Positions 1 to 51,261 of a stretch of DNA of 64,000 nt are shown piece after piece. Both the position numbers and the translations under genes were made by a program. The notes under the pieces are model-generated. The model was not told where the DNA came from. It ran no database searches and was given only the letters and a program-made list of their open reading frames with translations. Position 1 is the stretch's first letter, and the number at the start of each line of letters is the position of its first letter. This stretch comes from Centroberyx gerrardi (Eukaryota > Chordata > Actinopteri > Beryciformes > Berycidae), in NCBI RefSeq assembly GCF_048128805.1, contig NC_136001.1, positions 7,426,501 to 7,490,500 on the forward strand, in the 5' to 3' direction.

Positions 1-441
1 TGTCAAGCTATTGTGATGTTTTTCAAATGGTGGAGATCTCAGTTTCAGAATGCTGTGCTGGGAGTGTGGATGAGGGAAGTGCCTCAGGACTGATAATAAC
101 ATGGATTTCAAAATACAAATTATCCTGCAACAGGAGAAAAGACAAATCTCAGAAAAAAAAAAAAAACACACTAGAGTAAGATAGGATCATGTAGCCATAA
201 CCAGCATGTTTGCTGCCACACATGGACAATGCACACCTCAGGTAAAGACCAACCTGGTGATATACATCATCAGTCAAGTCAGAATATACATTATCGGTCA
301 AGTCAGAATATGATAAGGAAATATGAATGAGTTGATGAAAATGTATTTCACTATCATAGCATTGCAGCACTTCATTCAACTCTATTGTGACATTCCTCTG
401 TGGCTATATGACTGTAGTGAAAGTTCACAGGTGGTACTTAC

Positions 442-521
442 CTTAGTTAATGCAGTCAGACCAGGATGCCAACGTGACATAACAGAGAGTGGCTCCAGAA
501 AATCTATCAGATACTTTTATA
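442..521 (-). promoter_or_regulatory. TATA promoter and noncoding first exon of an off-window receptor gene
   Basis: On the minus strand TATAAAAG (514-521) is followed after about 25-30 bp by a short leader ending in a consensus donor, AAG|GTAAGTACC (last exon base 442). The block recurs unchanged in all eight units, always at the same place upstream of a receptor gene. Transcription runs leftward, so this copy serves a gene beyond position 1. The start site (about 489) is inferred from TATA spacing only. Confidence 0.65.
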
Positions 522-609
522 TGTGCTGGGGTTGGCAAACATCTAAGGATACAGGGGTGTGTGTATACATGTGTAGGTGTAGGTGTGAATGCATACAGGT
601 GGGTAGTAG

Positions 610-610
<1 letters not shown>

Positions 611-642
<32 letters not shown>
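611..642. repeat. (TG)16 microsatellite
   Basis: Pure TG run beside the hAT-like element. Both strands give long but meaningless Cys-Val or His-Thr readings here. Confidence 0.95.
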
Positions 643-646
<4 letters not shown>

Positions 647-675
647 CGTGCATGGATGTATGGTTGTGTACACAT

Positions 676-1451
676 TAGGGCTGTCAAAATTGGCCAAAAA
701 TGACGTTCCATTATTCCTTCTAAAAAAACACATAGGTTCGAACCATTCGAATATCTATTTTGGCGCATTATGTCCATAAGAGGGCAAACCAATACAACGA
801 GAGACATAACTACTTGTATAGGTATATTTATTTCAACATAAACATGTCTTTTAAAAGATCTACATACCTACACATTACAAAATAAACAAATAAAATAATG
901 TCCTATACCGTAAAACTTCATTTAAAGACCTCTCTCTCTCTCACTGAGGACGCGCTGTCTCTCGGAGCAAGATCAAATGAATGATTCGTAATTGATATGT
1001 TATTCGATAGCCTAATTTTTATACAGGTTAGGTAATATTCATACTGGTTTAAATAAACAATTTGATACAACTTTATCTCGAGGTTACACAATTTTGCCGT
1101 CTGACCAAAATCCGAAGTATTTCCAAACAGGGCTTTTTAGATTGCTCGGAGGGGGTTGTGAACTCTCTGCCATCATTACCACACGGTTGTTGTTGAATTA
1201 TTCGCTCGTTTCAGCTTGACCTATATTTCATTTTCAATCAATGAAAGTGACGTTGTGTGACTTCTGTCCATCATGCAGTGCATTCAGTGCAGCGGCCCAG
1301 GCCCACGCGAGAACTCGCGAGGCGGACAGCCGCGGTAGTGCTGCTTTTTTTTTTTTTTTCACAATCGAATATTAATTTTCATAATCGAATGTCTGTTTTT
1401 TTTTACAATTCGATTATATAATCGAATTTAGAATATTCGTTGACAGCCCTA
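676..1451. mobile_element. hAT-like MITE, 776-bp form
   Basis: Starts TAGGGCTGTCAA and ends TTGACAGCCCTA, a perfect 12-bp terminal inverted repeat. It is flanked by gtacacat (668-675) and gtacgcat (1452-1459), an 8-bp target duplication with one mismatch. An 8-bp duplication with TAGGG-type ends is characteristic of the hAT superfamily. No transposase frame is present, so it is non-autonomous. The interior is AT-rich with repeated ATTCGAAT/ATCGAAT motifs near both ends, a (CT)n tract near 930 and poly(T) runs near 1345 and 1396. Confidence 0.85.
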
Positions 1452-2115
1452 GTACGCATGCACATGGGTCCGTGTGTGTGTGCTCACACTATCTGCCTTA
1501 TTGACTCTGACTCTCCAGCCATAGCATAGAGCTGTAGTTTGAGTTGAAAATGATATTTAACTTTGATACGATGTTCATATCTTTCATCACACTTACATAT
1601 GTGGACATGAACAACCATGGAAATCACAGGAGGTAGATGATATAGTCATTTTCTGTCTATTGTTTCCAATAATTGCAACCAGGCAAAATTATACAATTTC
1701 TCACTGAGAACATAAACACAAACTTCATTTGTATTTGTATAACCACGGCAGACAGCAGTATTTACAGCTGCAGCTGGAGATTCAAGGCCAGAGCGCAGCA
1801 ACTACTCCTACTGCATTCTGCCTTGGATTTAGCTGGTTTTTTTGTTACTGCAAATTTGACATGCAGTTTTGTCTCAAACTAAACATAAATGAGCCAAAAC
1901 AGTTTGTTACAAGATAAAACAGAGGCTGGTGAACAAAGTCGGTTTCCAGTCTTAATTCAATTTTGACCAAACTTGTAGTTTCTACATTTTGCCTTTGCAC
2001 GTCAGTATTGCGTAAACATTTAATGAAACCTGATGCAAAGATTTCATCAGTATTCATGTATGTGACATGTAGCTGCTATGAAGCTCTTATTTACTCCATA
2101 TGATTGTGTTACACG

Positions 2116-2174
2116 TTTACATTTTAGACATTTAGCTGACACTAATCCAGAGCACCTTACAATGAGTGCAGCAG
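2116..2174. repeat. SINE-like teleost interspersed fragment
   Basis: Contains 'acatttagctgacactaatc' followed by 'cagagcaccttacaa', a form of a short conserved segment spread through many teleost genomes. The family name is not assigned. It lies in the predicted 3' UTR of gene 1. A minus-strand AATAAA (2185-2190) lies next to it and is the best poly(A) signal for the gene. Confidence 0.55.
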
Positions 2175-2529
2175 TAGAATGAGCTTTATTTATAGTTGAA
2201 AGCAAAGAATAACTCTATTTATAGAACCAAAGTCCTGACTGGAGTGCTTAGATCATAGCACCACTGGGGAGCCAAGAGGGATAACAATCATCGGCCCGGA
2301 CTATGGCCTGGAGGCATGGCGATGTAGCTCCCTTAGCAGCCTTGGGTTGTCAATGACATGAGCAGCAGAGCGAGTGGAGAGAGTGCTGGAGAAGGGCGAC
2401 ATGGGCTAATTTGGGGAAAGTGAATGCAAGGTGGGCTTAGGATGCTCAGGAAAGCCTTCCAGAGTTCATGAAGTGTCACCTTTTTCTTTTTAAATAAAGA
2501 CCTCCTAATTACAGTCTGTGGATGGGTGA

Positions 2530-5500
2530 TTACTGTATGCTCACTTTACACAACAGATACCTTTTCAGGTACCTCCTGAAAGTCTTGTCCCGTAGGCCAT
2601 AGATGATTGGACTAATGGATCGTGGCAGGATGTGTATAATAATATAGCAAGCAAAGAGGGAGTCCGCATAATGTTCAGGGAACCAGTACAGCAGAGCTTT
2701 TTTTAACAGGGGGCCTGCATAGGTAGCCATACACAACAGCAGCTGAAATCCATGGAGGAGGATAGTTTTCTGGGCCTTCTTAGCATCGGTGCTTGCCTCC
2801 TTGGCAGTGAACAGGATCCTGAAGTAAGTGTAGAAGATAATGAGCCAAACTATGACTAGGAACACTATATAGGTGATATCCCTCTTCTTGATAATGGTGG
2901 GATTCCTGAAGACGGTTTCCCTGAGACAGAAGACTCGGGTATGAAAAAACTCCAGGGGTTCTGTGGCCAGGGCGATGAAGAGGTCGGGGAGGACAGACAA
3001 CATGCTCGTCGCCCAGATCAGACCAATCAGCATGTGTGTTCTTTTGACTGTACAGATCTGCGCATGGCGGAGGGGGACGCAGATGGCAATGTAGCACTCT
3101 ACCGCCATGCAGGCCAGGTTCAGAGGGGTGTTTTCGGTGGTGAAAAGAGCAAGCAGGATGGCACAGCAGCAGAGGGAGACATTTATTGTGTAGAGGGTGT
3201 AGCTGAGGAGGAATAGCATGATAGTGAGCATCAGCTGGATCATATCGTTGACCACCAGGTGAATGAAAAGGATGTAGCGAGGATTCATGTAGAAGATCTG
3301 GTTGGCGGGAATGAAGAGGAGAGGGGTATGGGGAGATGGAAGGAGAGGAGGATGGAGGGGAAAATTGAGAGAGGAGAGTGGGGAGGAAAGAAAATAGTTG
3401 AGTGGAGCAGAGTTCAGTAGAAGAGGGGCAAGGGCAAGACTAGAGAAAACAGCACATGGGAAGTGGGGAAAGGTGTAGAGAAAAGGGGAGTTTCTCCAAA
3501 GAATCATCATTACAGAACATTGATGCTTTTTTTGGAAACCAAAATCTCTATGTTTTTGTACTGGATTTACATATTTCTAAGAGCACACATTGTAGTATCG
3601 TAATTAAGTTTTCTCATTCTGACATAAATGGCAATTACTTGAGTCATTGCTGCAGTGTTTACAATGAACACATTAGCAAACATTGTACAGATTCAAAATA
3701 TAGTGCATTTAATATTGACTTGACTAGTGCAGTGCCCGTTCAAAACGTGCCTGTCCGGAACGGGCCGATTGCTGCTTGCTGCTTTCTCGAGAACTGCTCG
3801 TGCCCGTAGTGCTGCTTTCTCGAGAATCGCGTGTGCCCGTACCGCTTGAGCCCCGCTGCCGCACAGAGCGCTGTCCGCTTGTTTATTCAAAGTTTAGTAA
3901 TATTGAACGTGTCGCGTGTCCAAATTGCACCAAATCCGACACTGCACGTCCTTGGGTCCCCAGTCCCCAGACTTCACCAGTGAGACTAAACTGCGCTTGA
4001 ACCGTAGAAGCAGTTTACGGCCTTCCATTGGTTGATTCTGCTGCCAATCAAACGTGTCTGCGCTCCTATTGGCTAGTTTTACTGCCTCCGCCTCTGTTAT
4101 TTTCTCCTGTGTGTGCTCGTTCTTCTCTCTCGGGCATGAGCGGGGCGCGTGCCTTTGTCCCGCTCAGCCAGTCAGAGCCCTGAAGCCCCCCCCCCGCTGC
4201 ACTCAGACACAGAGCTGAGAGGCTCGCTGTTCGCTTGTTTAGTCGGTTTATTAATATTGAACGTGTCACGTGTCCAAATTGCACCAAATCCGACACTGCA
4301 CGTCCTTGGGTCCCCAGCAATACACTCGCCAAGTGTGAAGTTGATCGGACGAACGGTTCTCGAGATATGCGAAGGACACACACACACTCACTCACAGACA
4401 GAGATTCCTCGAATTAGTAGATAGATGTTTACAATAACTTTATCCTTGTGCCGCTCCTTTATCAAGAGCTGACAATCACCCGCAGAAGCATTTATAGATG
4501 GACAATGCTTTTTCCACCACTAGACCTAGGATTGGACTTGTAATACCTGAAAGGTGTGCTGCTAATTCTGGTGAATCAAACATTAGCTAGACACAGCACT
4601 CTTCTTCTTTCTGCCTGTAGTTTTACAGTGACTGTCCACTGACAACACCCACACTCCTTGCCAACGCTGTGCTCGTAAATTTTGGACGCTTCATGGGTGT
4701 GGAAATCGATGTAGGCAAATTTGATGGTATAGGACTTATCCTAGATAAATGCTCAACTGAACACAAACACTATTTTTTTTTCAGATTTTTTTTTTTTGTA
4801 TTATTATTTATTTCTAATTCCTAAATTATTTTTTTTCAAAAAAGTTAATATGGGTCATGGATGTTATTGTAGGCCTAACTCCTTGTTTTTCTATGTTGAG
4901 AATTGTCAGGTAATGATCATTTACATCCTGGTCCTCCTGCTAATAAATAAAATAAAGTGAATTTTAATTTGTGAAAAGATGCATCATACAAAATTGGATG
5001 TGTAGGAACAGTAATAATTATTTTTCCGCCATGCTCTGTCTGGTGGGACAGGTGGAACATCAAGGAGGATACTTCATGAACAGACATGAATCAAACTGAC
5101 ACCTGCTGTTCTACTTATTAATGCTTGCTTCAGACGTGTAAAATTTGCATGAAATAGACTTTAGTTCATCTTTTGGCACCGCCCTGTCAATGTTGAGCTT
5201 GGAATTTTTTGACGCTCACCTTCCCACAATTTTCCACATAATCTCTACGCCTGCAAATTTGGCCGTTCAGTGGACACTCACTGTTAATCCAGCAGCAGAG
5301 GTGGTGGTGATATAAATATTAATTTCTGCCATATCTCCTCATTAAATTGATCATAAGTGGTTGGTTGACAGTGAAGGAATGTCAAACCTGATGTTTGCGG
5401 AAGGTGTGAATGAGACTGGCATTGATGTAGTTGATGGAGATGCCGAGAGCCACAACAACCACATTTTTGGTCACAGCTGTGGCGAAGGAGTCTCGATATT

Positions 5501-5537
5501 GTATAACCACTGTTACATTGGCAGATGACACGTTCAT
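2530..5537 (-). CDS. Odorant receptor 131-2-like, gene 1 (type alpha), two coding exons
   Basis: Seven-helix odorant receptor expected in the sensory-neuron membrane; the ligand is unknown. Coding exons are 5388-5537 (50 codons) and 2530-3297 (255 codons plus stop), giving 305 aa. The donor is CAG|GTTTGA. The acceptor ends CCAACCAG after a long pyrimidine tract, and the join KHQ-IFYMNPRYILF restores the family sequence. Exon 1 starts at MNVSSANVT, with two N-glycosylation sequons (N2, N7), then TM1 at about 25-46. Exon 2 has NPRYILFIHLVVNDM (TM2), Cys93, MAVECYIAIC at 114-123 (the DRY position reads ECY), Cys174, TM5 at about 191-213, LLHGFQLLLCM (TM6) and SPIIYGLRDKTFRRYL (TM7 and tail). A reading frame open upstream of exon 2, to 3510, is translated intron. 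Exon 1 continues to 5560 as 5' UTR, with acceptor TTTTGTTAG. Its promoter is at 6987-7066. Confidence 0.88.
3553..4770. repeat. Intron cassette A (copy 1), GC-rich composite repeat
   Basis: Sequence of units 1, 3, 4 and 5 that replaces cassette B between the same flanks ('aaatctctatg' on the left, 'tttttttcagatt' on the right). About 3722-4420 is a GC-rich interspersed repeat running from 'ctagtgcagtgcccg' to 'cctcgaattagtag'. It holds two direct copies of a module with 'ccaaattgcaccaaatccga' (near 3919 and 4273), about 354 bp apart, and a poly(C) run near 4187. I cannot classify it. The remainder is AT-rich without a recognisable gene. Confidence 0.75.
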
Positions 5538-6179
5538 CTCTTGGAAGCTGAAGTTGAAGTCTAACAAAAGAGAGACAACGTAATATTCATCAACTATCAT
5601 AAGAAACATTAACCCAAATATGCAACTTGTATGCAACATTATAGAGTTGCTATAAGTAATGTCATCATTTATTTACCATTGATCATATATTTATCATTGA
5701 CTGGTTGAATACCATATTATATAACAGTAGTTACAATAATTATACAACAAATGCAATAATTCTATACAATAATACACAACATAATCACACTTAGTAAACT
5801 GAGGAAGAACTCTTGGCTGGGTGGCATTGCACATTGTGGAAAAATCTCATGCGAATTTTAGATAACGTACAATAAACACTTTAGGAATAACTTCAGTTAC
5901 ATTATCAGGTTCATCATAGGCCTTTAGAGTGAGTCTTAGACATATACCATTAACAATTTGATCATGATAATTTCCACGCATGGTTATTTTTCAATAGTCT
6001 TTGCTATTTGCACCACAATCGTTGGCTTCATTACAGCTTTGTTGAAAGTTGCATTTTTAAAACTACTGGGCACTTTTCGACATTGTGGAACCGCTGGATG
6101 AATTCAATTTTGTTAGAGAGCCTTCCGTCCTCCTTACCAGGCCCACTCAATGATAAGAGCACAAGAAAGTAGTACTCAC

Positions 6180-6204
6180 CTCAGGCAGAAGATCAGGGCA
6201 TCAA
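6180..6204 (-). other. Candidate internal noncoding 5' UTR exon of gene 1
   Basis: On the minus strand a 25-bp segment lies between a T-rich acceptor (ATCTTTCAAG) and a strong donor (CTGAG|GTGAGTACT). It is conserved in all seven units at 14014-14038, 20552-20576, 27107-27131, 33645-33669, 41415-41439 and 49112-49136. It contains ATG followed one codon later by TGA, so it cannot extend the receptor. The donor is convincing. The acceptor is weaker, and splicing here is inference. Confidence 0.4.
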
Positions 6205-6986
6205 CTTGAAAGATAAAAATCAATATAATATTTTGAAAATACAATTAAAATAACCACAGTAGTGGAAAGAACAACATGAACGGCCCTTTTTTAATCATCA
6301 TTATTTTCAGTGTGGTTCCAATTTCCACTTCATTCAGTTCATTGTTTTGACACTTTGTCTTGAAACTGTGAAGGTGAGGCTGAGTAAGAATTCCAAAACG
6401 ATATCCATTTTGGGAAGGAAGTTCATCATTGATTATAGATGATCAGTCTGTAAAACTAGTATTATTTTCAACCAAGGACTTACAAGAAGTTACCTAAGAT
6501 CCTTTAAAAAGCATCATAATTATTTTCAACTTTTTGCTTTCAATTGTCAAGCTATTGTGATGTTTTTCAAATGGTGGAGATCTCAGTTTCAGAATGCTGT
6601 GCTGGGAGTGTGGATGAGGGAAGTGCCTCAGGACTGATAATAACATGGATTTCAAAATACAAATTATCCTGCAACAGGAGAAAAGACAAATCTCAGAAAA
6701 AAAAAAAAAAACACACTAGAGTAAGATAGGATCATGTAGCCATAACCAGCATGTTTGCTGCCACACATGGACAATGCACACCTCAGGTAAAGACCAACCT
6801 GGTGATATACATCATCAGTCAAGTCAGACTATACATTATCGGTCAAGTCAGAATATGATAAGGAAATATGAATGAGTTGATGAAAATGTATTTCACTATC
6901 ATAGCATTGCAGCACTTCATTCAACTCTATTGTGACATTCCTCTGTGGCTATATGACTGTAGTGAAAGTTCACAGGTGGTACTTAC

Positions 6987-7066
6987 CTTAGTTAATGCAG
7001 TCAGACCAGGATGCCAACGTGACATAACAGAGAGTGGCTCCAGAAAATCTATCAGATACTTTTATA
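6987..7066 (-). promoter_or_regulatory. TATA promoter and noncoding first exon of gene 1
   Basis: TATAAAAG is at 7059-7066 and the first-exon donor follows base 6987. It lies about 1.4 kb upstream of the coding start of gene 1, across the arbitrary unit border. Confidence 0.65.
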
Positions 7067-7154
7067 TGTGCTGGGGTTGGCAAACATCTAAGGATACAGG
7101 GGTGTGTGTATACATGTGTAGGTGTAGGTGTGAATGCATGCAGGTGGGTAGTAG

Positions 7155-7155
<1 letters not shown>

Positions 7156-7211
<56 letters not shown>
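7156..7211. repeat. (TG)28 microsatellite
   Basis: Uninterrupted TG run upstream of the promoter of gene 1. Confidence 0.95.
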
Positions 7212-7215
<4 letters not shown>

Positions 7216-7244
7216 CCTGCATGAATGTATGGTTGTGTACACAT

Positions 7245-8077
7245 TAGGGCTGTCAAAATTGGCCAAAAATGACGTTCCATTATTCCTTCTAAAAAAACAC
7301 ATAGGTTCGAACCATTCGAATATCTATTTTTGCGCATTATGTCCATAAGAGGGCAAACCAATACAATGAGAGACATAACTACTTGTATAGGTATATTTAT
7401 TTCAACATAAACATGTCTTTTAAAAGATCTACATACCTACACATTACAAAATAAACAAATAAAATAATGTCCTATACCGTAAAACTTCATTTAAAGACCG
7501 TAGACCTCTCTCTCTCTCTCTCTCTCTCTCGCTCTCTCTCTCCCTCTGCGCCGTGGTTGGTGCTAGAGTGAGAACTGAGAACGCGCTGTCTCTCGGAGCA
7601 AGATCAAATGAATGATTCGTAATTGATATGTTATTCGATAGCCTAATTTTTATACAGGTTAGGTAATATTCATACTGGTTTAAATAAACAATTTGATACA
7701 ACTTTATCTCAAGGTTCCACAATTTTGCCGTCTGAGCAAAATCCGAAGTATTTCCAAACAGGGCTTTTTAGATTGCTCGGAGGGGGTTGTGAACTCTCTG
7801 CCATCATTACCACACGGTTGTTGTTGAATTATTCGCTCGTTTCAGCTTGACCTATATTTCATTTTCAATCAATGAAAGTGACGTTGTGTGACTTCTGTCC
7901 ATCATGCAGTGCATTCAGTGCAGCGGCCCAGGCCCACGCGAGAACTCGCGAGGCGGACAGCCGCGGTAGTTCTGCTTTTTTTTTTTTTTCACAATCGAAT
8001 ATTAATTTTCATAATCGAATGTCTGGTTTTTTTTTACGATTATATAATCGCATTTAGAATATTCGTTGACAGCCCTA
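7245..8077. mobile_element. hAT-like MITE, 833-bp form
   Basis: Same 12-bp ends and gtacacat/gtacgcat duplication as in unit 1. This copy is longest because of an expanded (CT)n block (7505-7550) followed by 'gcgccgtggttggtgctaga', which the 776-bp form lacks. Confidence 0.85.
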
Positions 8078-8744
8078 GTACGCATGCACATGGGTCCGTG
8101 TGTGTGTGCTCACACTATCTGCCTTATTGACTCTGACTCTCCAGCCATAGCATAGAGCTGTAGTTTGAGTTGAAAATGATATTTAACTTTGATACGATGT
8201 TCATATCTTTCATCACACTTACATATGTGGACATGAACAACCATGGAAATCACAGGAGGTAGATGATCTATAGTCATTTTCTGTCTATCGTTTCCAATAA
8301 TTGCAACCAGGCAAAATTATACAATTTCTTACTGAGAACATAAACACAAACTTCATTTGTATTTGTATTACCACGGCAGACAGCAGTATTTACAACTGCA
8401 GCTGGAGATTCAAGGCCAGAGCGCAGCAACTACTCCTACTGCATTCTGCCTTGGATTTAGCTGGGTTTTTTTGTTACTGCAAATTTGACATGCAGTTTTG
8501 TCTCAAACTAAACATAAATGAGCCAAAACAGTTTGTTACAAGATAAAACAGAGGCTGGTGAACAAAGTCGGTTTCCAGTCTTAATTCAATTTTGACCAAA
8601 CTTATAGTTACTACATTTTGCCTTTGCACGTCAGTATTGCGTAAACATTTAATGAAACCTGATGCAAATATTTCATCAGTATTCATGTATGTGACATGTA
8701 GCTGCTATGAAGCTCTTATTTACTCCATATGATTGTGTTACACA

Positions 8745-8803
8745 TTTACATTTTAGACATTTAGCTGACACTAATCCAGAGCACCTTACAATGAGTGCAG
8801 CAG
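8745..8803. repeat. SINE-like teleost interspersed fragment
   Basis: Copy in the 3' UTR of gene 2, with 'acatttaca' in place of 'acgtttaca' at its left edge. Confidence 0.55.
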
Positions 8804-9158
8804 TAGAATGAGCTTTATTTATAGTTGAAAGCAAAGAATAACTCAATTTATAGAACCAAAGTCCTGACTGGAGTGCTTAGATCATAGCACCACTGGGGAG
8901 CCAAGAGGGATAACAATCATCGGCCCGGACTATGGCCTGGAGGCATGGCGATGTAGCTCCCTTAGCAGCCTTGGGTTGTCAATGACATGAGCAGCAGAGC
9001 GAGTGGAGAGAGTGCTGGAGAAGGGCGACATGGGCTAATTTGGGGAAAGTGAATGCAAGGTGGGCTTAGGATGCTCAGGAAAGCCTTCCAGAGTTCATGA
9101 AGTGTCACCTTTTTTAAAAAAAATAAAGACCTCCTAATTACAGTCTGTGGATGGGTGA

Positions 9159-12100
9159 TTACTGTATTCTCACTTTACACAACAGATACGTTTTCAGGTA
9201 CCTCCTGAAAGTCTTGTCCCGTAGGCCATAGATGATTGGACTAATGGATCGTGGCAGGATGTGTATAATAATATAGCAAGCAAAGAGGGAGTCCGCATAA
9301 TGTTCAGGGAACCAGTACAGCAGAGCTTTTTTTAACACGGGGAGGGCATAGGTAGCCATACACAACAGCAGCTGAAATCCATGGAGGAGGATAGTTTTCC
9401 GGGCCTTCTTAGCATCGGTGCTTGCCTCCTTGGCAGTGAACAGGATCCTGAAGTAAGTGTAGAAGATAATAAGCCAAACTATGACTAGGAACACTATATA
9501 GGTGATATCCCTCTTCTTGATAACGGTGGGATTCCTGAAGACGGTTTCCCTGAGACAGAAGACTCGGGTATGAAAAAACTCCAGGGGTTCTGTGGCCAGG
9601 GCGACAAAGAGGTCGGGGAGGACAGACAACATGCTCGTCGCCCAGATCAGACCAATCAGCATGTGTGTTCTTTTGACTGTACAGATCTGCGCATGGCGGA
9701 GGGGGACGCAGACGGCAATGTAGCACTCTACCGCCATGCAGGCCAGGTTCAGAGGGGTGTTTTCGGTGGTGAAAAAAGCAAGCAGGATGGCACAGCAGCA
9801 GAGGGAGACATTTATTGTGTAGACTGTGTAGGTGAGGAGGAATAGCATGATAGTGAGCATCAGCTGGATCATATCGTTGACCACCAGGTGAATGAAAAGG
9901 ATGTAGCGAGGATTCATGTAGAAGATCTGGTTGGCGGGAATGAAGAGGAGAGGGGTATGGGGAGATGGAAGGAGAGGAGGATGGAGGGGAAAATTGAGAG
10001 AGGAGAGTGGGGAGGAAAGAAAATAGTTGAGTGGAGCAGAGTTCAGTAGAAGAGGGGCAAGGGCAAGACTAGAGAAAACAGCACATGGGAAGTGGGGAAA
10101 GGTGTAGAGAAAAGGGGAGTTTCTCCAAAGAATCATCATTACAGAACATTGATGCTTTTTTTGGAAACCAAAATCTCTATGGAGCTTTAGCGAAGGTTCA
10201 GTCTGGAAGACTATCTTTTGCATGCTTAGGCTGTAGTTTTACTTCTCATACCATCCTGCCATTCACATCTCTCACGCATGCTCACTCATTATTTCCTTGC
10301 TGTCATTTCCTGGGTCCGTCAATTGAGATATCAGCTGTTCACATCAGCTGGTCACATCTATCCAATAGCACAGCGACACACCTCCATTGTTAGCCTATCA
10401 TCTTGCTGCTGTCTTTTTAAATATGTTTCTCTCTCTCCACTTTAGTCCGTTCATGCTGCTGTTCTGCGCTCATTTGTCATCGTGCAGGTCGTGTATGGCG
10501 AGTTTACGTTTTGTATTGCTGCTAATTCTCGGCCTGTCATCTTATTTCATGATGTCAGACTCAGAAACGGAACTGTTCGATGCTGAATTAATTGAATCGG
10601 CTTCTACCTCATCGGCAGCTTGGCGCAATGCTCGGATTGCTGCTCGTCAAGGAGAGTCAGGTTCAGAAATTCTGGAGATGTTAAAAGCTCAAGGCATTAC
10701 TCCGGCTCCGGGTCTGGAGCTCTCGCAGCTCCATGACCTGGCTAACGAAGTGGTTTGTGAAACACCAGTCCGGGATGAGCCCCCTGCAACCTCTGGCCTT
10801 TCAACAGCTCCTGGTCGCAAACACACAAAGAAAACTCATCATGTAGCTCCTCAAGCCAACCGCAAGAATGTCTCTGCCAGCCTGGCTCATCCCGATCAAC
10901 CAAATGCTGCCTTTCATCCATCACATAATACCTTCACATCAACTCTACAGTCTCAGTGGTAAATTCTATTCAGGCAATTGATGCTCACCTCCAGTCTCTG
11001 GAGAACACCCAAGCCTCATCATCTTCCTCTGCAATGCTTACTGCCTCTCAGATCCCGCTGATTCATGCACCAGCTCCTGCACCTGCACCTCAGCCATTCA
11101 TTCCCACCGCAAGTGCCCCATACGTGCCACAGCATTCTCTGGCCTCTGCTGTCTCTGCTTCGATGTTAGGTATTTAAGAGTCTTTGCCCAGAAGCCAGCC
11201 CAACGCCCATAGCAGTTCCCCCTCTAGAAGCATTAGCCCTCTATTAAACCAGCTTTCCCTGCAGTCATATTTAGAATCTGCCAGGTTTTATATGAGAAAG
11301 GGTCTAGCTGCCTCTACCCTGAAATCCTATGATTTTGCTTGGAAAACCTTTGCCTTGTTCTGCGTTTCTCTGAATTTGCCACTAAAACCTGTTACAATCA
11401 GTGCTGTTTGCGCATTTATTTGTCATTGCATGGATGTGCGTCATTTTAAGCCTCAGTATATAAGAGGTCTGGTCGCTGGTATCCAGTTTAATGCTAGATG
11501 TTCTGATCCATCCATCCATCCAGCCTATTTTCCAATCCGGCCATTAAACTGTTACTTAAAGGCATTTCAAAAGTTTCCCCCTCTAGCATTGATAATAGAC
11601 TCCCTATTGCTCTTTCCATCTTGCATAAAATGCTTTCAGTCTTGAGACATGGTTATTTTTCTCCCTATGTCGACTCTCTCTTGGATTGTTCTTTTTTATT
11701 CGCTTTTTATGGGTTTTTAAGGAGTGGTGAATTTACCACTTCTTCAAATTCATTTGATCCAGGTAAAGACGTTACCTTTTCGGATTTATCTTTCCACCCA
11801 GAATTCTTTAGTCTTTTCCTTAAACACTCTAAAGCTGGAGGTGCTTGCGCTGTAATCATTGCTCACATTGATTATTTAATTCTGTCCTTTTAAATCAATG
11901 TGTACATTTTTTAAAAACAGGCCTCTCTCCGACCCTTGTGCCCCTCTTTTTCTGACCCCAGATAACAATCCCATGTCCAAATCTTGGTTTAGCTATCATT
12001 TAGAGCAGATTCTTCTGATATGTAACATACCCCCAAAGCTTTATTCAGGTCATTCATTTAGAATAGGTGCTGCAACCTCCGCAGCCATGCAAGGTCTATC

Positions 12101-14820: not shown

Positions 14821-14900
14821 CTTAGTTAATGCAGTCAGACCAGGATGCCAACGTGACATAACAGAGAGTGGCTCCAGAAAATCTATCAGATACTTTTATA
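14821..14900 (-). promoter_or_regulatory. TATA promoter and noncoding first exon of gene 2
   Basis: TATAAAAG is at 14893-14900 and the donor follows base 14821. Confidence 0.65.
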
Positions 14901-14988: not shown

Positions 14989-14989
<1 letters not shown>

Positions 14990-36182: not shown

Positions 36183-36537
36183 TAGAATGAGCTTTATTTA
36201 TAGTTGAAAGCAAAGAATAACTCAATTTATAGAACCAAAGTCCTGACTGGAGTGCTTAGATCATAGCACCACTGGGGAGCCAAGAGGGATAACAATCATC
36301 GGCCTGGACTATGGCCTGGAGGCATGGCGATGTAGCTCCCTTAGCAGCCTTGGGTTGTCAATGACATGAGCAGCAGAGCGAGTGGAGAGAGTGCTGGAGA
36401 AGGGCGACATGGGCTAATTTGGGGAAAGTGAATGCAAGGTGGGCTTAGGATGCTCAGGAAAGCCTTCCAGAGTTCATGAAGTGTCACCTTTTTTAAAAAA
36501 AATAAAGACCTCCTAATTACAGTCTGTGGATGGGTGA

Positions 36538-40765: not shown

Positions 40766-42221
40766 CTCTTGGAAGCTGACAGTCTAACAAAAGAGAGACA
40801 ACGTAATATTCATCAACTATCATAAGAAACATTAACCCAAATATGCAACTTGTATGCAACATTATAGAGTTGCTATAAGTAATGTCATCATTTATTTACC
40901 ATTGATCATATATTTATCATTGACTGGTTGAATACCATATTATATAACAGTAGTTACAATAATTATACAACAAATGCAATAATTCTATACAAAAATACAC
41001 AACATAATCACACTTAGTAAACTGAGGAAGAACTCTTGGCTGGGTGGCATTGCACATTGTGGAAAAATGTGTGGAAAAATCTCATGCGAATTTTAGATAA
41101 CGTACAATAAACACTTTAGGAATAACTTCAGTTACATTATCAGGTTCATCATAGGCCTTTAGAGTGAGTCTTAGACATATACCATTAACAATTTGATCAT
41201 GATAATTTCCACGCATGGTTATTTTTCAATAGTCTTTGCTATTTGCACAACAATCGTTGGCTTCATCACAGCTTTGTTGAAAGTTGCATTTTTAAAACTA
41301 CTGGGCACTTTTCGACATTGTGGAACCGCTGGATGAATTCAATTTTGTTAGAGAGCCTTCCGTCCTCCTTACCAGGCCCACTCAATGACAAGAGCACAAG
41401 AAAGTAGTACTCACCTCAGGCAGAAGATCAGGGCATCAACTTGAAAGATAAAAATCAATATAATATTTTGAAAATACAATTAAAATAACCACAGTAGTGG
41501 AAAGAACAACATGAACGGCCCTTTTTTAATCATCATTATTTTCAGTGTGGTTCCAATTTCCACTTCATTCAGTTCATTGTTTTGACACTTTGTCTTGAAA
41601 CTGTGAAGGTGAGGCTGAGTAAGAATTCCAAAACGATATCCATTTTGGGAAGGAAGTTCATCATTGATTATAGATGATCAGTCTGTAAAACTAGTATTAT
41701 TTTCAACCAAGGACTTACAAGAAGTTACCTAAGATCCTTTAAAAAGCATCATAATTATTTTCAACTTTTTGCTTTCAATTGTCAAGCTATTGTGATGTTT
41801 TTCAAATGGTGGAGATCTCAGTTTCAGAATGCTGTGCTGGGAGTGTGGATGAGGGAAGTGCCTCAGGACTGATAATAACATGGATTTCAAAATACAAATT
41901 ATCCTGCAACAGGAGAAAAGACAAATCTCAGAAAAAAAAAAAAAAACACACTAGAGTAAGATAGGATCATGTAGCCATAACCAGCATGTTTGCTGCCACA
42001 CATGGACAATGCACACCTCAGGTAAAGACCAACCTGGTGATATACATCATCAGTCAAGTCAGACTATACATTATCGGTCAAGTCAGAATATGATAAGGAA
42101 ATATGAATGAGTTGATGAAAATGTATTTCACTATCATAGCATTGCAGCACTTCATTCAACTCTATTGTGACATTCCTCTGTGGCTATATGACTGTAGTGA
42201 AAGTTCACAGGTGGTACTTAC

Positions 42222-42301
42222 CTTAGTTAATGCAGTCAGACCAGGATGCCAACGTGACATAACAGAGAGTGGCTCCAGAAAATCTATCAGATACTTTTAT
42301 A
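42222..42301 (-). promoter_or_regulatory. TATA promoter and noncoding first exon of gene 6
   Basis: TATAAAAG is at 42294-42301 and the donor follows base 42222. Confidence 0.65.
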
Positions 42302-42389
42302 TGTGCTGGGGTTGGCAAACATCTAAGGATACAGGGGTGTGTGTATACATGTGTAGGTGTAGGTGTGAATGCATGCAGGTGGGTAGTAG

Positions 42390-42390
<1 letters not shown>

Positions 42391-42426
<36 letters not shown>
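42391..42426. repeat. (TG)18 microsatellite
   Basis: Pure TG run; the usual 'gcgtgc' after it is reduced to 'cctgc'. Confidence 0.95.
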
Positions 42427-42427
<1 letters not shown>

Positions 42428-42455
42428 CTGCATGGATGTATGGTTGTGTACACAT

Positions 42456-43175
42456 TAGGGCTGTCAAAATTGGCCAAAAATGACGTTCCATTATTCCTTC
42501 TAAAAAAACACATAGGTTCGAACCATTCGAATATCTATTTTTGCGCATTATGTCCATAAGAGGGCAAACCAATACAATGAGAGACATAACTACTTGTATA
42601 GGTATATACAAGTCTCTCTCTCTCTCTCGCTCTCTCCCTCTGCGCCGTGGTTGGTGCTAGAGTGAGAACTGAGAACGCGCTGTCTCTCGGAGCAAGATCA
42701 AATGAATGATTCGTAATTGATATGTTATTCGATAGCCTAATTTTTATACAGGTTAGGTAATATTCATACTGGTTTAAATAAACAATTTGATACAACTTTA
42801 TCTCGAGGTTCCACAATTTTGCCGTCTGACCAAAATCCGAAGTATTTCCAAACAGGGCTTTTTAGATTGCTCGGAGGGGGTTGTGAACTCTCTGCCATCA
42901 TTACCACACGGTTGTTGTTGAATTATTCGCTCGTTTCAGCTTGACCTATATTTCATTTTCAATCAATGAAAGTGACGTTGTGTGACTTCTGTCCATCATG
43001 CAGTGCATTCAGTGCAGCGGCCCAGGCCCACGCAAGAACTCGCGAGGCGGACAGCCGCGGTAGTGCTGCTTTTTTTTTTTTTTCACAATCGAATATTAAT
43101 TTTCATAATCGAATGTCTGTTTTTTTTTACAATTCGATTATATAATCGAATTTAGAATATTCGTTGACAGCCCTA
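42456..43175. mobile_element. hAT-like MITE, 720-bp form
   Basis: Same ends and internal gap as in units 3 and 5. Confidence 0.85.
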
Positions 43176-43842
43176 GTACGCATGCACATGGGTCCGTGTG
43201 TGTGTGCTCACACTATCTGCCTTATTGACTCTGACTCTCCAGCCATAGCATAGAGCTGTAGTTTGAGTTGAAAATGATATTTAACTTTGATACGATGTTC
43301 ATATCTTTCATCACACTTACATATGTGGACATGAACAACCATGGAAATCACAGGAGGTAGATGATCTATAGTCATTTTCTGTCTATTGTTTCCAATAATT
43401 GCAACCAGGCAAAATTATACAATTTCTTACTGAGAACATAAACACAAACTTCATTTGTATTTGTATTACCACGGCAGACCGCAGTATTTACAGCTGCAGC
43501 TGGAGATTCAAGGCCAGAGCGCAGCAACTACTCCTACTGCATTCTGCCTTGGATTTAGCTGGGTTTTTTTGTTACTGCAAATTTGACATGCAGTTTTGTC
43601 TCAAACTAAACATAAATGAGCCAAAACAGTTTGTTACAAGATAAAACAGAGGCTGGTGAACAAAGTCGGTTTCCAGTCTTAATTCAATTTTGACCAAACT
43701 TGTAGTTACTACATTTTGCCTTTGCACGTCAGTATTGCGTAAACATTTAATGAAACCTGATGCAAAGATTTCATCAGTATTCATGTATGTGACATGTAGC
43801 TGCTATGAAGCTCTTATTTACTCCATATGATTGTGTTACACG

Positions 43843-43901
43843 TTTACATTTTAGACATTTAGCTGACACTAATCCAGAGCACCTTACAATGAGTGCAGCA
43901 G
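43843..43901. repeat. SINE-like teleost interspersed fragment
   Basis: Copy in the 3' UTR of gene 7. Confidence 0.55.
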
Positions 43902-44256
43902 TAGAATGAGCTTTATTTATAGTTGAAAGCATAGAATAACTCAATTTATAGAACCAAAGTCCTGACTGGAGTGCTTAGAACATAGCACCACTGGGGAGCC
44001 AAGAGGGATAACAATCATCGGCCTGGACTATGGCCTGGAGGCATGGCGATGTAGCTCCCTTAGCAGCCTTGGGTTGTCAATGACATGAGCAGCAGAGCGA
44101 GTGGAGAGAGTGCTGGAGAAGGGCGACATGGGCTAATTTGGGGAAAGTGAATGCAAGGTGGGCTTAGGATGCTCAGGAAAGCCTTCCAGAGTTCATGAAG
44201 TGTCACCTTTTTTAAAAAAAATAAAGACCTCCTAATTACAGTCTGTGGATGGGTGA

Positions 44257-47200
44257 TTACTGTATGCTCACTTTACACAACAGATACCTTTTCAGGTACC
44301 TCCTGAAAGTCTTGTCCCGTAGGCCATAGATGATTGGACTAATGGATCGTGGCAGGATGCTTATAATAATATAGCAAGCAAAGAGGGAGTCCGCATAATG
44401 TTCAGGGAACCAGTACAGCAGAGCTTTTTTTAACAGGGGGTCTGCATAGATAGCCATACACAACAGCAGCTGAAATCCATGGAGGAGGATAGTCTTCCGG
44501 GCCTTCTTAGCATCGGTGCTTGCCTCCTTGGCAGTGAACAGGATCCTGAAGTAAGTGTAGAAGATAATGAGCCAAACTATGACTAGGAACACTATATAGG
44601 TGATATCCCTCTTCTTGATAATGGTGGGATTCCTGAAGACGGTTTCCCTGAGACAGAAGACTCGGGTATGAAAAAACTCCAGGGGTTCTGTGGCCAGGGC
44701 GATGAAGAGGTCGGGGAGGACAGACAACATGCTCGTCGCCCAGATCAGACCAATCAGCATGTGTGTTCTTTTGACTGTACAGATCTGCGCATGGCGGAGG
44801 GGGACGCAGATGGCAATGTAGCACTCTACCGCCATGCAGGCCAGGTTCAGAGGGGTGTTTTCGGTGGTGAAAAGAGCAAGCAGGATGGCACAGCAGCAGA
44901 GGGAGACATTTATTGTGTAGAGGGTGTAGCTGAGGAGGAATAGCATGATAGTGAGCATCAGCTGGATCATATCGTTGACCACCAGGTGAATGAAAAGGAT
45001 GTAGCGAGGATTCATGTAGAAGATCTGGTTGGCGGGAATGAAGAGGAGAGGGGTATGGGGAGATGGAAGGAGAGGAGGATGGAGGGGAAAATTGAGAGAG
45101 GAGAGTGGGGAGGAAAGAAAATAGTTGAGTGGAGCAGAGTTCAGTAGAAGAGGGGCAAGGGCAAGACTAGAGAAAACAGCACATGGGAAGTGGGGAAAGG
45201 TGTAGAGAAAAGGGGAGTTTCTCCAAAGAATCATCATTACAGAACATTGATGCTTTTTTTGGAAACCAAAATCTCTATGGAGCTTTAGCGAAGGTTCAGT
45301 CTGGAAGACTATCTTTTGCATGCTTAGGCTGTAGTTTTACTTCTCATACCATCCTGCCATTCACATCTCTCACGCATGCTCACTCATTATTTCCTTGCTG
45401 TCATTTCCTGGGTCCGTCAATTGAGATATCAGCTGTTCACATCAGCTGGTCACATCTATCCAATAGCACAGCGACACACCTCCATTGTTAGCCTATCATC
45501 TTGCTGCTGTCTTTTTAAATATGTTTCTCTCTCTCCACTTTAGTCCGTTCATGCTGCTGTTCTGCGCTCATTTGTCATCGTGCAGGTCGTGTATGGCGAG
45601 TTTACGTTTTGTATTGCTGCTAATTCTCAGCCAGTCATCTTATTTCATGATGTCAGACTCAGAAACGGAACTGTTTGATGCTGAATTAATTGAATCGGCT
45701 TCTACCTCATCGGCAGCTTGGCGCAGTGCTCGGATTGCTGCTCGTCAATGAGAGTCAGGTTCAGAAATTCTGGAGATGTTAAAAGCTCAAGGCATTACTC
45801 CTGCTCCGGGTCTGGAGCTCTCGCAGCTCCATGACCTGGCTAACGAAGTGGTTTGTGAAACACCAGTCCGGGATGAGCCCCCTGCAACCTCTGGCCCTTC
45901 AACAGCTCCTGGTCGCAAACGCACAAAGAAAACTCATCATCTAGCTCCTCAAGCCAAGCGCAAGAATGTCTCTGCCAGCTCGGCTCATCCCGATCAACCA
46001 AATGCTGCCTTTCATCCATCAGATAATGCCTTCACATCAACTCTACAGTCTCAGTGGTAAATTCTATTCAGGCAATTGATGCTCACCTCCAGTCTCTGGA
46101 GAACACCCAAGCCTCATCATCTTCCTCTGCAATGCTTACTGCCTCTCAGATCCCGCTGATTCATGCACCAGCTCCTGCACCTGCACCTCATCCATTCATT
46201 CCCACCGCAAGTGCCCCATACGTGCCACAGCATTCTCTGGCCTCTGCTGTCTCTGCTTCGATGTTAGGTATTTAAGAGTCTTTGCCCAGAAGCCAGCCCA
46301 ACGCCCATAGCAGTTCCCCCTCTAGAAGCATTAGCCCTCTATTAAACCAGCTTTCCCTGCAGTCATATTTAGAATCTGCCAGGTTTTATATGAGAAAGGG
46401 TCTAGCTGCCTCTACCCTGAAATCCTATGATTTTGCTTGGAAAACCTTTGCCTTGTTCTGCGTTTCTCTGAATTTGCCACTAAAACCTGTTACAATCAGT
46501 GCTGTTTGCGCATTTATTTGTCATTGCATGGATGTGCGTCATTTTAAGCCTCAGTATATAAGAGGTCTGGTCGCTGGTATCCAGTTTAATGCTAGATGTT
46601 CTGATCCATCCATCCATCCAGCCTATTTTCCAATCCGGCCATTAAACTGTTACTTAAAGGCATTTCAAAAGTTTCCCCCTCTAGCATTGATAATAGACTC
46701 CCTATTGCTCTTTCCATCTTGCATAAAATGCTTTCAGTCTTGAGACATGGTTATTTTTCTCCCTATGTCGACTCTCTCTTGGATTGTTCTTTTTTATTCG
46801 CTTTTTATGGGTTTTTAAGGAGTGGTGAATTTACCACTTCTTCAAATTCATTTGATCCAGGTAAAGACGTTACCTTTTCGGATTTATCTTTCCACCCAGA
46901 ATTCTTTAGTCTTTTCCTTAAACACTCTAAAGCTGGAGGTGCTTGCGCTGTAATCATTGCTCACATTGATTCTCAATTCTGTCCTTTTAAATCAATGTGT
47001 ACATTTTTTAAAAACAGGCCTCTCTCCGACCCTTGTGCCCCTCTTTTTCTGACCCCAGATAACAATCCCATGTCCAAATCTTGGTTTAGCTATCATTTAG
47101 AGCAGATTCTTCTGATATGTAACATACCCCCAAAGCTTTATTCAGGTCATTCATTTAGAATAGGTGCTGCAACCTCCGCAGCCATGCAAGGTCTATCAGC

Positions 47201-48457
47201 AGCTTTCCTTCAACAACTGGGCCGTTGGTCATCCTCTGCCTATGCCTCCTACGTGCGTCCTGATGGCACTGCAATCATTAAAGCTCAAAGATCTCTAAAG
47301 CCTTAAAGGGTAACTTCTGTATTTTTCAACCTGGACCCTATTTTCCCATCTTTTTGTGTCTAAGTGACTAAAGGGGACAACAATTTTTGAAATTGGTCCA
47401 GTATTGAGCGAGATCGCTTCAGCCGGCAGCCGCAAAACGAGCTGCAATGTAATCCGACGGGGTAAATCGCACCGTCAATGTACGTCCACTAAAAGTGTTT
47501 GTTTTTGCCACTGACAGGCTCAGATTGTTATTATAAGTGTCTGACAACATTATGGAAAGGACCCTACAGAGAAATGAAACGTTTTTCTTTACCTTTCGCT
47601 TGATCCGGTCTGTCTGTAACCAAGTCTCGCGAGAGTTGAGTTGTTGCAGGAAGTTACACACAGACCGGATCAAGCGAAAGGTAAAGACATTTTTTTTTTC
47701 AGATTTTTTTTTTTTTGTATTATTATTTATTTCTAATTCCTAAATTATTTTTTTTCAAAAAAGTTAATATGGGTCATGGATGTTATTGTAGGCCTAACTC
47801 CTTGTTTTTCTATGTTGAGAATTGTCAGGTAATGATCATTTACATCCTGGTCCTCCTGCTAATAAATAAAATAAAGTGAATTTTAATTTGTGAAAAGATG
47901 CATCATACAAAATTGGATGTGTAGGAACAGTAATAATTATTTTTTCCTCCATGCTCTGTCTGGTGGGACAGGTGGAACATCAAGGGGGATACTTCATGAA
48001 CAGACATGAATCAAACTGACACCTGCTGTTCTACTTATTAATGCTTGCTTCAGACGCGTAAAATTTGCATGAAATAGACTTTAGTTCATCTTTTGGCACC
48101 GCCCTGTCAATGTTGAGCTTGGAATTTTTTGACGCTCACCTTCCCACAATTTTCCACATAATCTCTACGCCTGCAAATTTGGCTGTTCAGTGGACACTCA
48201 CTGTTAATCCAGCAGCAGAGGTGGTGGTGATATAAATATTAATTTCTGCCATATCTCCTCATTAAATTGATCATAAGTGGTTGGTTGACAGTGAAGGAAT
48301 GTCAAACCTGATGTTTGCGGAAGGTGTGAATGAGACTGGCATTGATGTAGTTGATGGAGATGCCGAGAGCCACAACAACCACATTTTTGGTCACAGCTGT
48401 GGCGAAGGAGTCTCGATATTGTATAACCACTGTTACATTGGCAGATGACACGTTCAT
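44257..48457 (-). CDS. Odorant receptor 131-2-like, gene 7 (type delta), two coding exons
   Basis: Exons 48308-48457 and 44257-45024, 305 aa. Mostly alpha-like (I158, R296, S303) but with R226 as in beta and private changes I242, D245 and S272 in TM6 and TM7. Exon 1 has the alpha form with the longer 5' UTR part (to 48480), although the intron carries cassette B. Leader exon candidate 49112-49136; promoter 49919-49998, the last promoter in the array. Confidence 0.88.
45593..47306 (+). mobile_element. Tyrosine-recombinase element fossil, copy 3
   Basis: Same parts and orientation as the other two copies. Broken, with a handful of breaks, not all shared with copies 1 and 2, so the copies have drifted separately since duplication. 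Confidence 0.7.
47306..47688. repeat. MITE-like tail with 27-bp inverted repeat (copy 3)
   Basis: Perfect arms 47587-47613 and 47660-47686, with a shorter loop (46 bp) than in copies 1 and 2. Confidence 0.6.
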
Positions 48458-49918
48458 CTCTTGGAAGCTGAAGTTGAAGTCTAACAAAAGAGAGACAACG
48501 TAATATTCATCAACTATCATAAGAAACATTAACCCAAATATGCAACTTGTATGCAACATTATAGAGTTGCTATAAGTAATGTCATCATTTATTTACCATT
48601 GATCATATATTTATTATTGACTGGTTGAATACCATATTATATAACAGTAGTTACAATAATTATACAACAAATGCAATAATTCTATACAAAAATACACAAC
48701 ATAATCACACTTAGTAAACTGAGAAAGAACTCTTGGCTGGGTGGCATTGCACATTGTGGAAAAATGTGTGGAAAAATCTCATGCGAATTTTAGATAACGT
48801 ACAATAAACACTTTAGGAATAACTTCAGTTACATTATCAGGTTCATCATAGGCCTTTAGAGTGAGTCTTAGACATATACCATTAACAATTTGATCATGAT
48901 AATTTCCACGCATGGTTATTTTTCAATAGTCTTTGCTATTTGCACAACAATCGTTGGCTTCATTACAGCTTTGTTGAAAGTTGCATTTTTAAAACTACTG
49001 GGCACTTTTCGACATTGTGGAACCGCTGGATGAATTCAATTTTGTTAGAGAGCCTTCCGTCCTCCTTACCAGGCCCACTCAATGACAAGAGCACAAGAAA
49101 GTAGTACTCACCTCAGGCAGAAGATCAGGGCATCAACTTGAAAGATAAAAATCAATATAATATTTTGAAAATACAATTAAAATAACCACAGTAGTGGAAA
49201 GAACAACATGAACGGCCCTTTTTTAATCATCATTATTTTCAGTGTGGTTCCAATTTCCACTTCATTCAGTTCATTGTTTTGACACTTTGTCTTGAAACTG
49301 TGAAGGTGAGGCTGAGTAAGAATTCCAAAACGATATCCATTTTGGGAAGGAAGTTCATCATTGATTATAGATGATCAGTCTGTAAAACTAGTATTATTTT
49401 CAACCAAGGATTTACAAGAAGTTACCTAAGATCCTTTAAAAAGCATCATAATTATTTTCAACTTTTTGCTTTCAATTGTCAAGCTATTGTGATGCTTTTC
49501 AAATGGTGGAGATCTCAGTTTCAGAATGCTGTGCTGGGAGTGTGGATGAGGGAAGTGCCTCAGGACTGATAATAACATGGATTTCAAAATACAAATTATC
49601 CTGCAACAGGAGAAAAGACAAATCTCAGAAAAAAAAAAAAAAACACACTAGAGTAAGATAGGATCATGTAGCCATAACCAGCATGTTTGCTGCCACACAT
49701 GGACAATGCACACCTCAGGTAAAGACCAACCTGGTGATATACATCATCAGTCAAGTCAGAATATACATTATCGGTCAAGTCAGAATATGATAAGGAAATA
49801 TGAATGAGTTGATGAAAATGTATTTCACTATCATAGCATTGCAGCACTTCATTCAACTCTATTGTGACATTCCTCTGTGGCTATATGACTGTAGTGAAAG
49901 TTCACAGGTGGTACTTAC

Positions 49919-49998
49919 CTTAGTTAATGCAGTCAGACCAGGATGCCAACGTGACATAACAGAGAGTGGCTCCAGAAAATCTATCAGATACTTTTATA
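49919..49998 (-). promoter_or_regulatory. TATA promoter and noncoding first exon of gene 7
   Basis: TATAAAAG is at 49991-49998 and the donor follows base 49919. Confidence 0.65.
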
Positions 49999-50087
49999 TG
50001 TGCTGGGGTTGGCAAACATCTAAGGATACAGGGGTGTGTGTATACATGTGTAGGTGTAGGTGTGAATGCATGCAGGTGGGTAGTAGA

Positions 50088-50107
50088 TGTGTGTGTGTGT
50101 GTGTGTG
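50088..50107. repeat. (TG)10 microsatellite
   Basis: Shortest TG run of the series. Confidence 0.9.
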
Positions 50108-50140
50108 CGTGCGTGCATGGATGTATGGTTGTGTACACAT

Positions 50141-50972
50141 TAGGGCTGTCAAAATTGGCCAAAAATGACGTTCCATTATTCCTTCTAAAAAAACACATAG
50201 GTTCGAACCATTCGAATATCTATTTTTGCGCATTATGTCCATAAGAGGGCAAACCAATACAATGAGAGACATAACTACTTGTATAGGTATATTTATTTCA
50301 ACATAAACATGTCTTTTAAAAGATCTACATACCTACACATTACAAAATAAACAAATAAAATAATGTCCTATACCGTAAAACTTCATTTAAAGACCGTAGA
50401 CCTCTCTCTCTCTCTCTCTCTCTCTCGCTCTCTCTCTCCCTCTGCGCCGTGGTTGGTGCTAGAGTGAGAACTGAGAACGCGCTGTCTCTCGGAGCAAGAT
50501 CAAATGCATGATTCGTAATTGATATGTTATTCGATAGCCTAATTTTTATACAGGTTAGGTAATATTCATACTGGTTTAAATAAACAATTTGATACAACTT
50601 TATCTCGAGGTTCCACAATTTTGCCGTCTGACCAAAATCCGAAGTATTTCCAAACAGGGCTTTTTAGATTGCTCGGAGGGGGTTGTGAACTCTCTGCCAT
50701 CATTACCACACGGTTGTTATTATTCGCTCGTTTCAGCTTGACCTATATTTCATTTTCAATCAATGAAAGTGACGTTGTGTGACTTCTGTCCATCATGCAG
50801 TGCATTCAGTGCAGCGGCCCAGGCCCACGCAAGAACTCGCGAGGCGGACAGCCGCGGTAGTGCTGCTTTTTTTTTTTTTTCACAATCGAATATTAATTTT
50901 CATAATCGAATGTCTGTTTTTTTTTACAATTCGATTATATAATCGAATTTAGAATATTCGTTGACAGCCCTA
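50141..50972. mobile_element. hAT-like MITE, 832-bp form
   Basis: Same long (CT)n-bearing class as unit 2, with 'aaatgcatgattc' replacing 'aaatgaatgattc'. Confidence 0.85.
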
Positions 50973-51261
50973 GTACGCATGCACATGGGTCCGTGTGTGT
51001 GTGCTCACACTATCTGCCTTATTGACTCTGACTCTCCAGCCATAGCATAGAGCTGTAGTTTGAGTTGAAAATGATATTTAACTTTGATACGATGTTCATA
51101 TCTTTCATCACACTTACATATGTGGACATGAACAACCATGGAAATCACAGGAGGTAGATGATCTATAGTCATTTTCTGTCTATTGTTTCCAATAATTGCA
51201 ACCAGGCAAAATTATACAATTTCTTACTGAGAACATAAACACAAACTTCATTTGTATTTGT

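Follow-up and report, generated by a model that had tools for sequence, protein, structure and literature searches.

Introduction

How does a fish genome come to carry a long row of almost identical receptor genes, and what keeps the copies alike? The question is raised by a 64,000-nucleotide stretch of the genome of Centroberyx gerrardi (the window hereafter; C5:7426501-7490500, where C5 is contig NC_136001.1 of assembly GCF_048128805.1, 779 Mb in 278 contigs), in which odorant-receptor-like genes follow one another in a tandem array. Our analysis argues that the array very probably began with a single end-joining tandem duplication and was then carried by exchange and conversion to 11 units of complete two-exon receptor genes.

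The array consists of eleven units

A first-pass annotation of this DNA, made from the letters alone, had described near-identical head-to-tail repeats over positions 1-51261, and self-BLAST of the window bore this out (38 listed matches longer than 800 bp, 96.8-99.6% identical). That annotation counted seven genes; the window does hold seven open receptor frames, all on the minus strand, but the array comprises 11 copies in total. When the host genome was searched with the second coding exon (exon 2), 92 matches were found, 11 of them at 96-100% identity, and these 11 all lie on one strand of C5 between 7403729 and 7471527, four being located before the start of the window. The repeats are genuine and extend further than had been stated: by comparison with the upstream sequence the array occupies C5:7402935-7477761 (74,827 bp), exactly 11 units (U1 to U11) of 6,097 to 7,797 bp each, beginning at unit position 1739 and ending at unit position 1738. 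The window contains the seven genes of U5 to U11 and the tail of the preceding unit, U4. In the register used previously, the units measured 6,544, 7,834, 6,538, 6,555, 6,538, 7,770 and 7,697 bp, and a 1,785-bp remainder was taken for a truncated eighth unit. With the register set by the junction at window 1738|1739, the last unit is complete and the supposed truncated unit is the final part of U11. In a tree of sequences from this genome, the 11 array copies formed one clade, separate from nine older paralogues.

A single duplication probably founded the repeat

Identical pairs of sequences are joined at all ten junctions inside the array, and the differences near the joins are substitutions only. 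The left flank of the array ends in ...caggac and the right flank starts with gctagt, with no shared base at the breakpoint and no filler. The two flanks showed no similarity to each other at an E value of 0.01, and founding by recombination between flanking repeats was rejected on this ground. Since the same join recurs at every internal junction without homology at the breakpoint, a single duplication appears to have founded the array, and one end-joining event is the simplest reading of these breakpoints. Under this reading, a two-exon odorant-receptor gene at the edge of an older receptor cluster would have undergone one tandem duplication, by end joining that needed no homology.

Each unit carries a predicted two-exon gene

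In every unit, an exon coding for the first transmembrane segment (TM1) and ending in CAG / GTTTGA lies upstream of exon 2. Each gene is predicted to consist of two coding exons, of which exon 1 codes for the N-terminus and TM1, and exon 2, starting after ...CAG / ATC, codes for TM2 to the C-terminus and stop. The predicted intron is in phase 0 after codon 50, measures 1.67 to 3.31 kb across the copies, and would leave a spliced product of 305 amino acids. The exon pair with GT..AG ends was found in 11 of 11 array copies and also in all nine older paralogues, which were reconstructed upstream of the array (C5:7305241-7400345); in P1, the most distant of these, exon 1 lacks a clear start codon. 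The rate of nonsynonymous substitution (dN) in exon 1 was below the synonymous rate (dS) in four of four comparisons, and the spliced protein could be aligned through TM1 with intronless relatives. Ten such relatives were fetched from C11 and C6, a subset of the many exon 2 matches in the host genome, and all ten have TM1 and TM2 within one open frame. The intron was probably gained in the C5 lineage, loss elsewhere being the alternative. A TM1 frameshift common to all copies was also considered and was dropped once the TM1 exon had been found upstream. The predicted gene model draws strong support from comparison among copies and paralogues and mild support from Pfam.

A similar gene structure is known from cichlids, in which the spliced odorant receptors of family W (24 genes) all have two coding exons (Azzouzi et al. 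2014, PMC4122780; this and the other papers cited are represented here by the sections available to us). In many table rows for family W, the intron is placed at codon 50 in phase 0, within the first internal loop, and the codon before it is often CAG (PMC4122780). The array genes share the two coding exons and the first internal loop position, and matched the Table 7 rows in 11 of 11 copies, with phase 0 after codon 50 and CAT.CAG before the intron; the older paralogues have CAC.CAG or CAT.CAG, again resembling family W. The likeness is one of gene structure. Because family W has an intron in the same place, the intron of the array genes is not new. Odorant receptors are intronless in the coding region as a mammalian rule (PMC3308321), which the array genes with their two coding exons do not follow, and exceptions occur in fish, such as 28 multi-exon receptor genes (20%) in another species (PMC10093537).

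The units are nearly identical and have probably exchanged sequence

Coding sequences are identical in U2, U4, U7 and U9 and in U3, U5 and U8; three synonymous changes distinguish U6 from U10, and U1 and U11 are each unique, so that the full array holds six distinct coding sequences and five protein types. The four types counted in the first-pass annotation are those of the window once the genes are spliced (alpha, beta, gamma, alpha, gamma, beta and delta for genes 1 to 7, such that 1 equals 4, 2 equals 6, 3 equals 5 and 7 stands alone). The types differ from alpha at up to 13 of 305 residues, and all 11 coding sequences are open and free of indels. Every unit would then hold a complete gene, and the copies, if expressed, would most likely serve as near-interchangeable odorant receptors.

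Homologous segments were aligned separately, because whole-unit alignment pairs unrelated intron blocks and inflates the differences between short- and long-intron units. Between U2 and U4 there are 2 substitutions and 1 indel over 6.55 kb, between U7 and U9 10 substitutions and 2 indels, and between U5 and U8 21 and 5. In the earlier register, units 1 and 4 differ at 0 of 3,550 positions, at 2 in the intron block and at 1 of 1,772, and a total of 3 substitutions also separates units 3 and 5. Outside the coding sequence, the aligned segments of the window units contain 20 indel events, several of them in microsatellites.

In the alignment of all 11 units, from which any column lying 6 bases or less from a gap was removed before counting, 96 of 4,998 clean columns were variable. 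Among 1,891 informative site pairs, 548 were incompatible with one tree, requiring at least 14 recombination intervals. Neighbouring sites were more compatible than shuffled ones (p=0.0002; custom script with 5,000 shuffles, comparing 5 neighbouring informative sites). In the 3' flank, five adjacent columns have a common pattern and could reflect a single event. The gamma copies are mosaics with alpha-like states on the left and beta-like states on the right. On a two-unit diagonal with an offset of 12.65 kb, a 12.3-kb run contains only 2 differing clean sites, and its length is close to the offset, as expected from one two-unit duplication. The end units U1 and U11 hold 17 of the 34 private variants, while U2, U3, U4 and U7 hold none (7 of 11 units are marked); such a concentration at the ends is expected if inner units exchange more than outer ones. 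The mosaic variants and the 12.3-kb run point to later unequal exchange or conversion, either of which would fit. The array has the marks of a homogenised array, namely a junction common to the units, greater similarity among the copies than to their relatives, and mosaic variants. Recent amplification with ongoing homogenisation, which combines the two readings offered in the first-pass annotation, is supported by this junction, by the near-zero divergence of non-adjacent units and by the mosaicism. After its founding, the repeat would have grown to eleven units, kept alike by unequal homologous exchange and gene conversion.

Unrelated blocks and probable mobile elements occupy the introns

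Homogeneity had been claimed for whole units, introns included, but the centre of the intron carries unrelated blocks. In the window, four of seven introns have a block of 1.22-1.23 kb and three have, at the same place, an unrelated block of 2.41-2.44 kb, and U1 and U3 carry a third form of 0.80 kb. The middle of the short block recurs at at least 24 places elsewhere in the genome (at least 540 bases aligned, 83-95% identity; 40 of 743 candidates scored). The tyrosine-recombinase frame of the long block has 79 matches in the host genome, and its matches to Pfam Phage_integrase are weak (20.4 and 17.4 bits against a cut-off of 27.1). Recombinase frames lie at window 39035-39610 and 46728-47306, with a broken form at 11507-12209, and an imperfect inverted repeat of ~113 bp (81%) lies at the right end of a long block, at 12489-12601. 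Five recombinase matches (on C1, C2, C10, C11 and C22) have identical scores, and such equal-scoring copies suggest a recently active mobile element.

Selection and the ECY motif

Several observations weigh against complete, working odorant-receptor genes in every unit. The splice donor GTTTGA is weak. Splicing raises the Pfam 7tm_1 score only from 52.3 to 53.3 bits, moving the start of the match from profile position 17 to 6, and lowers Pfam 7tm_4 (Olfactory receptor) from 28.4 to 26.3 bits, where the cut-off is 27. The best Protein Data Bank matches are non-olfactory receptors, with OR52c ranked lower. No purifying selection was detectable within the array (dN/dS 0.77, 2 delta lnL 0.42 against a ratio of 1), and pairwise NG86 ratios in the window were 0.69-1.53 where nonsynonymous changes exist, and 0 between the two beta copies; columns 600-1075 of the left segment and the first 39 columns of the right segment were left out of this pairwise comparison.

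These ratios also bear on what drove the expansion. Selection for copy number or receptor diversity, in place of neutral exchange, would agree with the many variable coding sites in the window that are nonsynonymous and with NG86 ratios as high as 1.53, but we consider it unlikely, as the array-wide ratio is indistinguishable from 1 and the changes are few in all. In so young an array no clear signal of selection can be expected, and the ratios are compatible with selection for diversity without demonstrating it.

The (D/E)RY motif at the end of TM3, characteristic of odorant receptors, is absent from the array copies: its Arg position is Cys (ECY) in 11 of 11 copies, and also in eight of the nine older intact paralogues and in a broken paralogue at C5:7339215. 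P1 keeps ERY, as do all ten intronless relatives that were fetched. Across the nine older paralogues, dN/dS was 0.245 (2 delta lnL ~227 against 1), and for seven ECY sequences, made up of U3 and six of the older paralogues, it was 0.30 (2 delta lnL ~169 against 1); U3 compared with four of these ECY paralogues gave dN ~0.2 and dS 0.88-1.0. Since the Cys is common to older paralogues under purifying selection, the change predates the array and does not reflect decay, which was dropped as its cause. Judged from this distribution, the ECY change arose after the intron and before the array, and genes that look to be working have kept it. In the available sections of the cichlid paper (PMC4122780), a D to E change is given for the DRY motif of one subgroup, and 'ECY' does not occur in its main text. 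No report of ECY was found in the open-access literature searched, which is weak evidence of absence.

It is also conceivable that the array is non-functional and consists of copies of an already inactive gene, a reading to which the change of the motif Arg to Cys could point. The Arg is replaced in every copy and the dN/dS of the array is not distinguishably below 1, but the coding sequences have stayed open and free of indels in all 11 copies, against the 20 indel events outside coding sequence in the window units, and the same Cys is found in older paralogues whose ECY set is under clear constraint; we judge inactivity to be distinctly improbable. Two of the older paralogues, P6 (C5:7369436) and P8 (C5:7385227), lie 15.8 kb apart, separated by a further copy, and do not differ in coding sequence, and broken members of the same receptor cluster lie at C5:7330307-7330743 and C5:7339215-7343408.

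Assembly of the array

A smaller array could have been inflated by haplotype or repeat mis-joins, and the very low divergence of some units (2 substitutions and 1 indel in 6.55 kb) would agree with this, as would an unplaced 39.9-kb contig with a separate receptor repeat that is 99.2% identical to part of C11. However, the array contains no N, both of its edges fall at the same unit position, private variants tag 7 of 11 units, and the units are distinct in variants, indels, and intron class and length, so that an artefact is very unlikely. The unplaced contig (C101, 39,894 bp) carries a receptor tandem repeat with copies at 17203, 22691 and 28179 (5,488-bp spacing, 99.1-99.5% identity) and matches part of C11:1598000-1607999; this near-duplicate indicates that near-identical receptor arrays are hard for this assembly.

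Long frames and family identity

Single-exon genes that use the N-terminus of the long frames, as the first-pass annotation had implied, are scarcely tenable: the frames are open upstream to 326 or 354 amino acids and Pfam 7tm_4 scores slightly higher with this N-terminus, but the added part is rich in pyrimidines up to a final CAG, does not encode TM1 and diverges upstream between unit classes, against a TM1 exon ending in CAG / GT that lies 1.7-3.3 kb upstream in all array copies, is common to the older paralogues and has dN below dS. On the spliced model, these frames owe their N-terminus to read-through of the intron, and the Pfam 7tm_1 match to the long frames begins after TM1. The spliced two-exon product belongs to the rhodopsin class (7tm_1, 53.3 bits against a cut-off of 30.5, residues 43-283). 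For 7tm_4, three long frames gave 28.4, 27.7 and 26.1 bits.

The array genes may be '131-2-like', the family label given in the first-pass annotation. Rhodopsin-class membership, with olfactory-receptor-like relatives in the same genome, stood; the exact name was returned by none of the searches, and NCBIfam gave 0 families for the spliced protein. No paper on tandem arrays of odorant receptor 131-2 was found in the open-access literature searched. Zebrafish OR131-2 (PMC2993934) bears the name that is applied to this putative family.

Features and surroundings of the array

The features of the window are collected in Table 1. Beyond the array, a reverse-transcriptase fragment (Pfam RVT_1, 64.2 bits) lies at 52274-52711, ~1 kb past the right edge, and several diverged repeats (75-85% identity) occupy ~58138-60894 in the right flank. 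ARAGORN, run with the bacterial code, found no tRNA in the window, and a search for relatives among viral contigs gave four pattern matches, none of them confirmed.

Table 1. Units, junctions, predicted exons and intron blocks in window coordinates; the unit register is set by the founding junction.
Feature	Position	Strand	Remarks
U4 end	1..1738		gene lies upstream of window; whole U4 is C5:7421685-7428238
U5	1739..8366		protein type alpha
U6	8367..16099		type beta, long intron
U7	16100..22652		type gamma
U8	22653..29192		type alpha
U9	29193..35746		type gamma
U10	35747..43464		type beta, long intron
U11	43465..51261		type delta, long intron; right edge is array right edge
Founding duplication junction	1738..1739		...TTTGT / AT(T/A)ACC; same join at 10/10 internal array junctions
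Further junctions	8366/8367, 16099/16100, 22652/22653, 29192/29193, 35746/35747, 43464/43465
Gene 1 (U5) exon 1	5388..5537	-	N-terminus and TM1, ending CAG / GTTTGA
Gene 1 (U5) exon 2	2530..3297	-	TM2 to stop
Gene 2 (U6) exon 1	13215..13364	-
Gene 2 (U6) exon 2	9159..9926	-
Gene 3 (U7) exon 1	19760..19909	-
Gene 3 (U7) exon 2	16892..17659	-
Gene 4 (U8) exon 1	26303..26452	-
Gene 4 (U8) exon 2	23444..24211	-
Gene 5 (U9) exon 1	32853..33002	-
Gene 5 (U9) exon 2	29985..30752	-
Gene 6 (U10) exon 1	40616..40765	-
Gene 6 (U10) exon 2	36538..37305	-
Gene 7 (U11) exon 1	48308..48457	-
Gene 7 (U11) exon 2	44257..45024	-
Short intron block, gene 1	3553..4772		1,220 bp; others 17915-19144, 24467-25687, 31008-32237; middle is a dispersed repeat
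Long intron block, gene 2	10182..12603		2,422 bp; others 37561-40004, 45280-47689; tyrosine-recombinase reading frame

Discussion

That teleost receptor clusters grow by tandem duplication is well documented (PMC1325023, PMC6409572). The array resembles ordinary teleost clusters in its single orientation, contiguous subfamilies and tandem growth (PMC1325023, PMC10093537, PMC6409572); unlike them, it has kept the repeat unit and its flanks at the base level, with one junction readable in every unit. It is a young, very fresh example of a known process of receptor-family growth, and its youth leaves the founding join, the duplication of two units and the mosaic exchanges all open to direct reading. 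It thus offers a clean case for research into the growth of receptor clusters. The first-pass annotation was correct in substance and wrong on gene model and count, and the case illustrates how spliced fish receptors are misread by single-frame annotation.

The ECY lineage is the most interesting part of this locus. We tentatively raise the possibility that a long-lived fish receptor lineage replaced the Arg of (D/E)RY by Cys and kept it across synonymous divergence near 1, at a dN/dS of ~0.3, that such receptors may differ in their coupling to G protein or use another signalling route, and that one of them is now being amplified. If true, this could be a natural exception to the canonical receptor switch, and the lineage asks whether an odorant receptor can function without the Arg that is usually deemed important for G-protein coupling.

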